The position numbers were made by a program, and so were the translations under genes. From the NCBI GenBank assembly GCA_030605565.1, contig JAUWIB010000020.1, forward strand, positions 1-43,987: a DNA stretch of 43,987 bases. The letters run 5' to 3'. Source of the DNA: a bacterium (GTDB lineage Bacteria; Zixibacteria; MSB-5A5; GN15; FEB-12). Positions 1,517 through 37,894 of this stretch are shown here, piece by piece. Under the pieces are notes generated by a model. It ran no database searches, was not told the origin of the DNA, and was given only the letters and a program-made list of their open reading frames with translations. The stretch's first letter is position 1; each line of letters starts with the position of its first letter.

Positions 1517-2110
1517 TCAGCCCTCGTCGGATTTCTTGGTCGTGGTCTTGCCGCTGGGGCAGCCGGTGGTCTTCTGGAGAGTGGCACAGGTTTTGGCGCA
1601 AGTCGGACTACAGCCGATCTTGCCGGAGGCCGCTTTTGTCTTGGCCGGGGCATCCGAGGTCTTGGCCACAGTCGGTATGATCTCTGCCTGATAGCCTTTG
1701 TTGATCACCGCCGAGGTAAGCGCTTTGCCATCGACTTTGGTCGGATCGCAACATAGGAGAGCGAACCCTTCCTTGTGGTCGACCTTGATGACTTTATTGA
1801 CGCCTTCTATCGACGAGAGCGCCGTCGTGATGGTCGTTTCGCAGCCGCCGCAGGTCATACCCTTGATGGACATCCGGGTGAAGTCGCAGTTTGCATGACC
1901 TTCACACATTTTGGCGCATTGTTCAGGGGTCATGCCGCAGAGCTTGGCGCACTCTTCGGGGGACATGACTTTGCACCCGGGGTGTGTCGCCTTGGATTTT
2001 TCAGCCGAAACCTTATGCGCGCCACAGCCGGCGCCGGCCAGCGCCGACGACGAGACAAACGCCACCAATAGCAGGGCGCTCAAGCCAAAAACCATAATCT
2101 TCTTCACCAT
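1517..2110 (-). CDS. Secreted Cys-rich heavy-metal-associated (HMA) domain protein
   Basis: A 197-residue protein. The start at 2110 is chosen because AGAAGGAG lies 5 nt upstream and because it begins a clean signal peptide (MVKKIMVFGLSALLLVAFVSSSALAG); an in-frame upstream Met at 2152 lacks this site. Residues 78-150 form a ferredoxin-fold HMA domain with the metal motif GMTCGGC (C87, C90), as in MerP/CopZ-like proteins. Before it lies a Cys-rich stretch with two similar halves (SPEECAKLC and TPEQCAKMC, about residues 50-69) and a CxxxxxH-PGC start; the tail again carries several CxxxC groups (CSPTCAKTC). Such proteins bind Cu, Hg or similar soft metals outside the cytoplasm. The extra Cys clusters suggest a scavenger or sensor rather than a simple chaperone. 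No P-type ATPase or mer gene is adjacent, so the metal is unknown. Confidence 0.8.
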   Translation of the reverse strand: MVKKIMVFGLSALLLVAFVSSSALAGAGCGAHKVSAEKSKATHPGCKVMSPEECAKLCGMTPEQCAKMCEGHANCDFTRMSIKGMTCGGCETTITTALSSIEGVNKVIKVDHKEGFALLCCDPTKVDGKALTSAVINKGYQAEIIPTVAKTSDAPAKTKAASGKIGCSPTCAKTCATLQKTTGCPSGKTTTKKSDEG

Positions 2111-2154
2111 GATACTCCTTCTGTGGAATCGAGATAGTTTGCTTATTTCCATAC

Positions 2155-2182: not shown

Positions 2183-2397
2183 TCTGTTTATCGACTATTT
2201 GGACCCTTGATCCCGGCCGATTCAGGTTACCTGCTTAGACAATTATGCTGCCATAAAGTTCCCCGCCGACGGAAAGTTCTTCTCCGAGACTGATCAAATT
2301 GCTAACTTGCGACCGGTCCTGACGTTATTAGATAGAAGATCATAATCGACCTACTCGGCGGGACGTTCGCCGTGCATATGATTACAGGAGAGTGCTG

Positions 2398-2493
2398 TTG
2401 TCTTCGAATCTGATTGACAAACTAAAGGCCGAAGGCTGGACGCAAGTGGCAAGCCACTCTTTCGCGCTACGCGCGCTTGAGGGTGGACCATAG
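2398..2493 (+). CDS. Short upstream ORF made by the insertion (31 codons)
   Basis: TTG at 2398 sits 5-6 nt after AGGAGAG, a better ribosome site than that of the following gene. It reads the 16 original residues and then 15 residues encoded by the hairpin insert (VASHSFALRALEGGP), ending in TAG at 2491-2493, three nt before the ATG of the 81-residue protein. I see it as the decapitated original start. If translated it may couple ribosomes to the downstream ATG; a stable product is unlikely. Confidence 0.45.
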   Translation: MSSNLIDKLKAEGWTQVASHSFALRALEGGP

Positions 2494-2544
2494 GCTATGT
2501 CTTCAAACCTGATTGACAAACTAAAGGCCGAAGGCTGGTCGCAA
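2398..2544 (+). repeat. 48-bp direct duplication of a gene start flanking a 51-bp hairpin insertion
   Basis: Bases 2398-2445 and 2497-2544 are near-identical 48-bp copies (about four differences) that both encode the first 16 residues of the CxxC protein (SSNLIDKLKAEGW). Between them sit 51 bp (2446-2496) beginning with the hairpin GTGGCAAGCCAC and a GCGC-rich arm. The first 30 bp of this insert recur at 37608-37637. The upstream copy keeps the good ribosome site (CAGGAGAG, 2385-2392) and a TTG start, but reads into the insert and stops at 2491-2493; the second copy supplies the ATG of the full gene. Confidence 0.85.
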
Positions 2545-2742
2545 CAGTTCACAGCCTCTGGAGTGCGGCTTCAGGAGGCGCTTGAGAATTACCGGATGCT
2601 TGGGTTTGAGGTTAAGACAATTCCGATCGGCGAACTTGGATGCGAGGGTTGCACGATCTGCTTCGAAGACGAAAGCGACGCCTCGGTGATGATCTTCACT
2701 CGCCCCACCAGCAAGCCACAGGACGACGATTTGGCCGACTAA
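2497..2742 (+). CDS. Small conserved-looking CxxC protein of unknown function
   Basis: An 81-residue acidic protein that I do not recognise. Visible features: an amphipathic N-terminal helix (LIDKLKAEGW), a second helix (RLQEALENYRMLGFEVK), and a CEGCTICFEDE motif (two Cys as CxxC plus a third, about residues 49-55) that could bind metal or be redox active. The C-terminus is polar and Pro/Asp rich. The ATG at 2497 is preceded by GAGGGTGGA at 2479-2487, contributed by the inserted hairpin element. The gene ends 72 nt before the alcohol dehydrogenase. Its stop codon is followed almost at once by a possible -35 box for that gene, so the two may be separately transcribed. A helper for CoA or redox enzymes is possible by position only. 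Confidence 0.6.
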   Translation: MSSNLIDKLKAEGWSQQFTASGVRLQEALENYRMLGFEVKTIPIGELGCEGCTICFEDESDASVMIFTRPTSKPQDDDLAD

Positions 2743-2814: not shown

Positions 2815-3837
2815 ATGAAAGCAGCCATATTCAACGGTCCCAACCAACCGCTTGAACTGAAAGAAGTCCCCACCCCAACTCCCGGACCAGGTCAGCTTCT
2901 GATCAAAACCGCCGCCTGCGGTGTCTGCCACACCGACATCGGCTACATCAATCATGGCGTGCCGACGTTCAAGAAACCGCCGATTATTCTGGGGCATGAA
3001 CCTTCCGGAACCGTGGCCGAGCTTGGTGAAGGTGTGGAAGGTTTCAAAGAGGGAGATCGCATCCTGCTGCCGGCCGTGGTGACGTGCGGAAACTGTCGCG
3101 CCTGCCGTACCGGTCGTGAGAACATCTGCGAAAACATGGTGATGTTCGGCAACAACGTCGACGGTGCTTTCGCCGAGTATCTGCTGGCGCCGGCCAGGGA
3201 CACATTCCATCTGCCGGACGAGATTCCGCTTCAGGAAGGATGCATCATAGCCGATGCCATCTCGACCCCGTACCACGCTATCGTCAACCGCGCCCAGGTC
3301 AAGCCGGGTGACTCGGTCGTGGTGGTCGGATGCGGCGGCGTAGGTATTAATCTCGTCCAGATGACAGCGGCTGTCGGTGGCGCCGCAATTGCGGTGGATA
3401 TCTCCGAAGAAAAACTCGACTGGGCCAAAAAACTGGGCGCGGTGGCTACGATCAATCCCAAAGAGGATGAGAAGTGGCCCAAAACCGTCAAGAAGATGAC
3501 CGGTGGCGGCGCTGATATCGCCATCGAGGCAATCGGCAACCCGAATACAATTGAAACCGCATTCAGCAGTCTCCGTGTAGGCGGCAGATTAGTCGTGCTG
3601 GGTTACTCGGCCAAGAACATCTCACTCTTTGCCGGTAAGATCATGTTCCACGAGATGGAGATCGTCGGCTCGCTCGGATGTCGCCCGGTCGATTACCCCC
3701 CGCTGATCGAGATTTGTCGTCTGGGTAAGATCAAAGTCAAAGAGTTGGTCACGGCGAGATTTTCACTCGATGACATCAACGATGCCCTGGACACTCTGAG
3801 AGAAGGAAAGGGGCTGCGCTCGATTATCGCATTCTAA
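2815..3837 (+). CDS. Zinc-dependent medium-chain alcohol dehydrogenase
   Basis: A 340-residue MDR-superfamily dehydrogenase. The N-terminal GroES-like domain has the catalytic zinc region CGVCHTD (C38, H39 area) and [15 protein letters not shown], and the structural zinc loop with four Cys ([15 protein letters not shown]). The Rossmann domain follows with [11 protein letters not shown] and an acidic residue after beta-2 (AVDISEEKL), which favours NAD over NADP. It oxidises an alcohol to aldehyde or ketone, or the reverse. The next genes handle 3-hydroxyacyl-CoA and enoyl-CoA, and some MDR enzymes act on alicyclic hydroxyacyl-CoA (6-hydroxycyclohexene-carbonyl-CoA dehydrogenase type), so a CoA-ester substrate is possible. 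Simple fermentation alcohols are equally possible. Start fixed by AAAGGAG 7 nt upstream. Confidence 0.85.
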
Positions 3838-10677: not shown

Positions 10678-10798
10678 CCAACAGTCTACGCGAATATTCG
10701 GGAGGATTTTTGTGGGCGGCAGACGTCCTCGTCTGCCCCAGTATCCACGTGGCGCACGAGGACGTACACCACGCACAACGATACTTGGGAGGCTTGCG
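10678..10798 (+). repeat. Hairpin insertion between porA and porB
   Basis: PorA ends with an ATGA overlap that opens a second frame (10674-10802, beginning MTNSLREYSGG), but this frame is not PorB. Within it lie hairpins GGCAGACG, TCCT, CGTCTGCC (10718-10737) and a GTGG...CCAC structure (10749-10774). The insert is bracketed by two similar ribosome-site stretches, CGGGAGGATTTTTG (10699-10712) and TGGGAGGCTTGCGTTG (10786-10801). The segment 10751-10766 recurs exactly, inverted, at 33897-33912. Confidence 0.65.
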
Positions 10799-37604: not shown

Positions 37605-37894
37605 GGGTGGCAAGCCACTCTTTCGCGCTTCGCGCGCTACTGATCTCACCTTGAGCGGAGCCGAAGCATGAGCGAGTTCCACGCTTTTGTCATGCCGGAC
37701 TTGATCCGGCATCCAGGTCTTGATCGGTCGAAACCCCTGCGGTCTCGACTTCTTCGTCAGGAGCACAGGGCTCCTGACCTACAGGACTAACTGGAACAAG
37801 ATCTGTCGACTGTTTCCCGGGTGGCATGGACGTTCGGGCGCGTTGAAGAAGCTCCTTTCCTCGTCATTGCGAGCGACACAGACTCTCAAATAAA
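37605..37894. repeat. Gap of mixed dispersed hairpins and MITE-like left half (copy D)
   Basis: No gene. In order: GTGGCAAGCCAC plus the TTTCGCGC arm (37608-37637), the same unit as the insert at 2446-2475; TGAGCGGAGCCGAAGCA (37653-37669); ATGCCGGA, CTTGA, TCCGGCAT (37692-37712); GGTCGAAACC, loop, GGTCTCGAC (37726-37749); GTCAGGAG, loop, CTCCTGAC followed by CTAC (37756-37782); then GGGTGGCATGGACGTTCGGGCGCGTTGA...TCATTGCGAGCGAC (37819-37877), the left half of the MITE-like element. Confidence 0.65.

Follow-up and report, generated by a model that had tools for sequence, protein, structure and literature searches.

How a gene comes to carry its own first codons twice is the question raised by a small gene in a 43,987-nucleotide contig (JAUWIB010000020.1, assembly GCA_030605565.1) of a bacterium from the phylum Zixibacteria. 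We refer to this whole stretch of DNA as the window and to the genome it belongs to as G000. A first-pass annotation of the window explained the doubled gene start by a small element that had entered it with a 48-bp target duplication. Here we compare the locus with related genomes and describe the repeat that lies between the two copies, which we designate E.

The doubled gene start

The gene in question (2497..2742, + strand) is intact and encodes a CxxC protein of 81 aa. No Pfam or NCBIfam family matched this protein, and its relatives were found in 13 of the 61 genomes searched, its own genome included. The gene adjoins a GltD-like gene in loci L013, L015, and L050 and an alcohol dehydrogenase gene in loci L013, L048, and L050.

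The presence of the gene's first 16 codons on both sides of a 51-bp segment, reported in the first-pass annotation, was confirmed. Copy 2 (2497-2544) opens the intact gene, copy 1 (2398-2445, + strand) starts with TTG, and the spacer occupies positions 2446-2496; the overall layout amounts to about 1.5 units of a repeat with a period of 99. The two 48-bp copies have indeed diverged slightly: 44 of 48 bases agree, with mismatches at copy positions 1, 9, 12, and 43 (BLAST E-value of about 1e-14). The duplication is beyond chance, since the flanking-repeat score at this site is 37, far above that of any other copy of E (24 for the next one) and of the controls (maximum of 18), when the 109 repeat copies listed are compared with 109 random positions.

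It was also claimed that the beginning of the spacer recurs in the window. This is true of its initial 31 bases, with one base different. The second copy starts at 37607, not at 37608 as first given, because the spacer match runs from 37607 (37607-37637; 97% identity over 37607-37638). The 31 bases constitute E (2446..2476, + strand), which is predicted to fold into a double hairpin: hairpin 1 at 2445-2458, a T-rich link, and hairpin 2 at about 2463-2475. The rest of the spacer (2477..2496, + strand) contains GAGGGTGGA at 2480-2488 and is diverged. It occupies the same place as ...GGACAGCGAATAAC-ATG in G005 and ...GACAGCGAAAAAC-ATG in G006, two other genomes of the genus. The similarity is weak, and this segment between E and copy 2 is probably the CxxC gene's own upstream sequence.

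The TTG of copy 1 opens an ORF of 31 codons (2398..2493, + strand), the TAG of which ends 3 nt before the CxxC ATG at 2497, in agreement with the earlier description. The window copy of E is read in frame inside this small ORF.

The junction in related genomes

The HMA-domain (heavy-metal-associated) gene at 1517..2152 (- strand; Pfam PF00403) was used as the marker of the locus. It adjoins the start of arsC in relatives, and the same gene is found in G003 (L047), G005 (L049), G006 (L048), and G001 (L046). In G001 an intact arsenate-reductase-like gene (PF01451) is divergent from the HMA gene; its protein scores 158.5 bits with TIGR02691, under the cut-off of 174.3. The arsC-like gene of G003, also divergent from the HMA gene, is 3'-truncated. 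In G005 arsC is reduced to its first 20 codons, ending with CGGTCGCAA (GGTCGCAA at the E junction); it is followed at once by an identical 31-bp E, then by 22 bp and the CxxC ATG, and there is no 48-bp copy. The G006 locus has no E and no arsC stretch beyond a few bases.

A remnant of the start of the same arsC/LMW-phosphatase-like gene can be recognized in the window at 2378..2397 (+ strand). None of 5000 shuffles was as similar to the G005 arsC start as these final 20 bases before the TTG are, while 199 of 5000 shuffles reached their similarity to the pre-ATG sequence of the E-free G006. By this comparison the left flank of copy 1 appears to be the start of arsC and not sequence that originally preceded the CxxC gene. 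Divergence is higher around 2360-2377 than in the adjoining parts of the window, and the site may thus have gone through more than one event.

Copy 1 ends with GGACGCAA and is followed by E, and the arsC of G005 (GGTCGCAA) meets E at exactly that place. The same motif, GGWCGCAA, directly before E ends both the 48-bp copy in the window and the arsC stretch in G005. Since G005 has the order arsC-E-CxxC without the copy, E most likely already preceded the CxxC gene when the 48-bp copy arose. The state with E and without the copy is represented by one genome (G005), as is the state without E (G006); the two assemblies are fragmented drafts with a completeness of 84% and 69%, respectively.

The copying itself occurred in the G000 line, because both 48-bp copies carry TCT at codon 2 and CTA, which are absent from G005 and G006 (ACT/ACA and CTG). 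Copy 1 retains AAT and ACG of the relatives and has changed ATG to TTG; in the intact gene AAT and ACG were altered. With 4 differences per 48 bases the copying event is not especially young, although numbers this small do not permit dating.

A dispersed repeat within a segment flanked by two near-identical 48-bp copies is what one would expect if E had transposed into the CxxC gene start, generating a 48-bp target-site duplication with copy 2 as the new start. We consider such an insertion very unlikely. When the locus was aligned with that of relatives, as the first-pass annotation had proposed, G005 turned out to have E at the same site without the duplication; arsC rather than CxxC upstream sequence lies to the left of copy 1, and some 20 bp of the spacer seem to derive from the region that originally preceded the CxxC gene. 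Duplications of 40-50 bp were also sought around other copies of E, and a comparable one was found at none of the 108 other listed copies. The annotation had itself allowed that its model would weaken if the match near 37608 proved to be common, and this match belongs to a repeat that is widespread in the genus. Hardly credible at all is an assembly artefact: the genome is a 152-contig draft, but the copies are not identical (4 mismatches in 48 bp) and sit in the interior of a 44-kb contig, and the separately assembled G005 repeats the junction of E with GGWCGCAA. Judging from the aligned sequences, the history that most likely takes the place of a fresh insertion involves an older repeat, a decayed arsC gene, and a short copied patch.

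Repeat E as a family

The 31-bp E occurs at 17 sites in G000 with at most three mismatches and its reversed pattern at none, so the 30-mer that the first-pass annotation regarded as a dispersed repeat is one and not a background match. With the same threshold E was detected in five of the seven genomes of the genus, and a search of 54 further genomes from the family and order gave no match; with the reversed pattern there was none in any genome. The 16-base core of E is found in G000 40 times exactly and 90 times with at most one mismatch. Exact counts in the rest of the genus are 40 (G001), 22 (G006), 18 (G005), 15 (G003), 2 (G004), and 0 (G002). No description of an E-type repeat in Zixibacteria was found in the open-licence literature searched, and E seems to be an undescribed, genus-restricted family of double-hairpin repeats.

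We studied 109 copies, taken from the retrieved loci among the matches listed, each with at least 150 bp on either side, no adjacent N, and a core with at most two mismatches. The set includes orthologous copies, and therefore the counts obtained from it are not independent. Comparison of contexts delimits the E unit as a variable 14-base palindrome followed by a T-run and by a CGCGCTNCGCGCG stem that hardly varies. The first stem has at least five of its six pairs in 83 of the 109 listed copies and exists in 17 distinct versions. Covariation in this stem was assessed on 81 distinct 31-mers: 359 of 486 cells are Watson-Crick pairs, and 2000 shuffles, in which kinship between copies remains, gave 233 on average and never more than 262. 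The hairpins are short. All five copies that were folded are predicted to form two separate hairpins, with weak z-scores against shuffles (-0.8 to -2.1).

The stop codon of an ORF of at least 200 codons abuts the 5' edge of the E hairpin (offsets from -5 to +1), with the T-run after the hairpin, in 15 of 83 listed copies. The corresponding numbers are 0 of 83 for the other end of E and 10 of 1660 for control positions. The 26 of 109 copies with fewer than five of six stem pairs were left out of this test, and its rows include at least one orthologous pair (L002 and L054). Such placement and orientation are those of a candidate terminator or mRNA-end element. Most likely, E acts as a terminator-type gene-end stem-loop, composed of a covarying hairpin, a T-run, and a second GC hairpin. 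A simple terminator scan covering 2100-2900 did not pick out the window copy of E, so the case for this role is made by the placement of the family only. Rfam gave no matches at the gathering score in the whole window.

The second copy in the window (37607..37637, + strand) is located just 3' of the stop of an adenosine-specific-kinase gene. E follows the same stop in G005; G006, G001, G004, and G002 have other sequence there, and the 37607 site thus offers neither a clean empty site nor a readable target duplication. In G003 (L055) no match to the end of the kinase gene was obtained. Several further short repeat modules (e.g. TGTCATGCCGGACTTGATCCGGCATCCA) follow this element at 37680-37880, and the intergenic space of the genus is a mosaic of palindromic modules.

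Several known repeat systems are worth comparing with E. As described in PMC3049150, SPRITE of Streptococcus pneumoniae is an AT-rich repeat that resembles a Rho-independent terminator and has one 18-bp duplex. SPRITE as described there has in common with E that both are short dispersed repeats with a hairpin and a T-rich tract near the 3' ends of coding sequences; both are also confined to close relatives, with no target-site duplication established for either. The strand-specific placement at gene 3' ends that characterizes SPRITE-like repeats was observed for E. Relative to SPRITE as outlined in PMC3049150, E differs in its covarying stem of 5-6 bp, its short T-run, its second, nearly constant GC stem, and its frequent contact with a stop codon.

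REP and REPIN sequences, as described in PMC2817692 and PMC8049555, resemble E as dispersed short palindromes with preserved complementarity, and E does keep its palindrome by complementary changes. RAYT genes are described as always flanked by their REPs (PMC2817692, PMC8049555). In the genus a Y1-type (REP-like) transposase gave 23 matches in six of the seven genomes (L138-L157 and L160-L162), and the E core was located within 300 bp of none of the 23, several of which are near contig ends with a short or missing flank. We thus do not regard E as a REP/RAYT system. G002 is the sole genome of the genus without a Y1 match; it also has no exact E core.

Rickettsia palindromic elements and MITEs, taken for comparison from PMC10969869, are small repeats as well, and the window E is in frame in a small ORF. 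In relation to these elements, E is distinguished by the absence of a unit-spanning inverted repeat, by no target-site duplication having been found, and by the many copies that abut gene ends. Among the 109 listed copies, examined with 100-bp flanks, the window copy alone has a long flanking duplication, which the relatives explain otherwise. The next-longest ones are 24, 16, 16, and 14 nt against the control maximum of 18, and those below about 10 nt are indistinguishable from chance. Nor were terminal inverted repeats seen: in the five folded copies the hairpins are separate and the ends of the unit do not pair with each other. A MITE-like nature of E was rejected on both counts. One copy in G001 (L064:1502-1532, - strand) has a 24-nt hairpin-like module (GGCGGGTCCGTCTTCGAACCCGCC) on both sides, touching E on its left and separated from it by 41 nt on its right.

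Three facts together, namely that the copy at 37607 is shared with G005, that no comparable flanking duplications are present at the listed copies, and that the Y1 genes have no flanking E, point to E as an old, partly inherited repeat population.

A proposed history of the locus and a possible role of E

The zinc alcohol dehydrogenase (ADH) gene (2815..3837, + strand; assigned with Pfam) is an old neighbour of the CxxC gene, being found 3' of it in L013, L048, and L050. In G001 and G002 the order is a GltD-like oxidoreductase gene (designated X), the CxxC gene, and the alcohol dehydrogenase gene. In G003 the HMA/arsC pair adjoins a hemerythrin-PAS gene and a DUF1858 gene (families assigned from the G000 copies). 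These neighbourhoods are exchanged in G000: the DUF1858 gene faces X in contig C141, and the HMA gene with the arsC remnant faces the CxxC and ADH genes in the window. The identity of the HMA region to that of the window is about 90% in G005 and G006, 81% in G003, and 69% in G001; the lower values fit a position of G003 and G001 outside the derived group. The junctions with X and with the DUF1858 gene were not found in G005, which leaves G000 as the one genome that shows the whole rearrangement.

Recombination between copies of E might lie behind the rearrangement by which the CxxC gene reached the arsC locus; we regard this as a tentative proposal, somewhat short of probable. In G000 each of the two derived junctions contains E, as does the sequence following X in G006, and no core is listed in the loci of the ancestral type (L047 with arsC of G003, L013 of G001, and L012 with X-CxxC of G002). 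However, E is common at gene ends, where later insertion or chance placement could have put it, and the contigs do not let the exchange be traced. Besides, E shares the X/DUF1858 junction of G000 with another dispersed repeat, about 70 bp long (L002, about 1405-1475), and is thus not the sole candidate there. The latter repeat occurs in the window at 10708-10778 (- strand) and has many matches in G000, G001, G003, G005, and G006 and fewer in G004.

We think it likely that the doubled gene start is a rearrangement scar, produced by gene decay and short-patch copying beside an older dispersed hairpin repeat, and not by a fresh jump of an element. Ancestrally, the CxxC gene would have stood between X and the alcohol dehydrogenase gene, and the arsC-like gene elsewhere, divergent from the HMA gene, as is seen in relatives. 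A rearrangement, possibly mediated by E, then brought the HMA/arsC side next to the CxxC/ADH side. The common line of G000 and G005 would have had the first 20 codons of arsC ending with GGTCGCAA, E, about 20 nt, and the CxxC ATG, the state kept by G005. Finally, in the G000 line the arsC stretch from ...GTGCTG to GGWCGCAA would have been replaced by the CxxC gene's first 16 codons.

Microhomology-mediated template switching and small tandem duplication in bacteria yield short non-reciprocal copies with microhomology at the join. The window case resembles them in both respects and differs in that it is deduced from sequence alone and that its left join is almost blunt, with about 3 nt of possible microhomology; the shared GGWCGCAA is at the right join only. 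At this motif, template switching or a minor unequal exchange would account for the right join. The copying could thus have proceeded by a template switch, or by a 99-bp unequal duplication and a small deletion, at the 8-nt microhomology. In the latter, two-step version an unequal crossover at GGWCGCAA would give a full 99-bp tandem unit (E, spacer, and CxxC start), and a deletion would then remove the first E and the arsC remnant, leaving the same end product as a template switch. The period-99 structure and the presence of GGWCGCAA in both partners speak for this version, but it requires two events and a deletion whose end coincides exactly with the start codon, and no intermediate has been seen; we hold it to be possible and rather unlikely. 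By either route the TTG ORF would be a by-product of the copying, which ribosomes may read. That it is a selected, translationally coupled leader of the CxxC gene, as suggested earlier, we find quite improbable. ORFs do reach the CxxC start in the three clade members that were compared (a stop 3 nt before the ATG in G000, an ATGA overlap in G005, and a 20-nt overlap in G006), and in G002 the CxxC gene is close behind X. Yet the upstream-ORF peptides of G000, G005, and G006 are dissimilar, and with three genomes and such short distances the ORF ends near the CxxC start may be due to chance.

On a bolder and doubtful view, E would be a strand-specific module of gene ends, so far undescribed and confined to the genus. 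Its hairpin 2 would be constant and its hairpin 1 exchangeable and self-complementary, and it would settle exactly at stop codons and re-wire operon neighbours by recombination between copies, as when the CxxC gene left X.

What looked like an insertion with a target duplication has, on comparison with relatives, been given another history. Of the results, the double-hairpin repeat family itself is likely to last longest. The family was uncovered in a little-studied phylum; its first stem varies freely yet stays self-complementary, and it often lies at a stop codon. Should E terminate transcription or set off rearrangements, the family would offer a simple natural example of how a dispersed repeat can shape operons.
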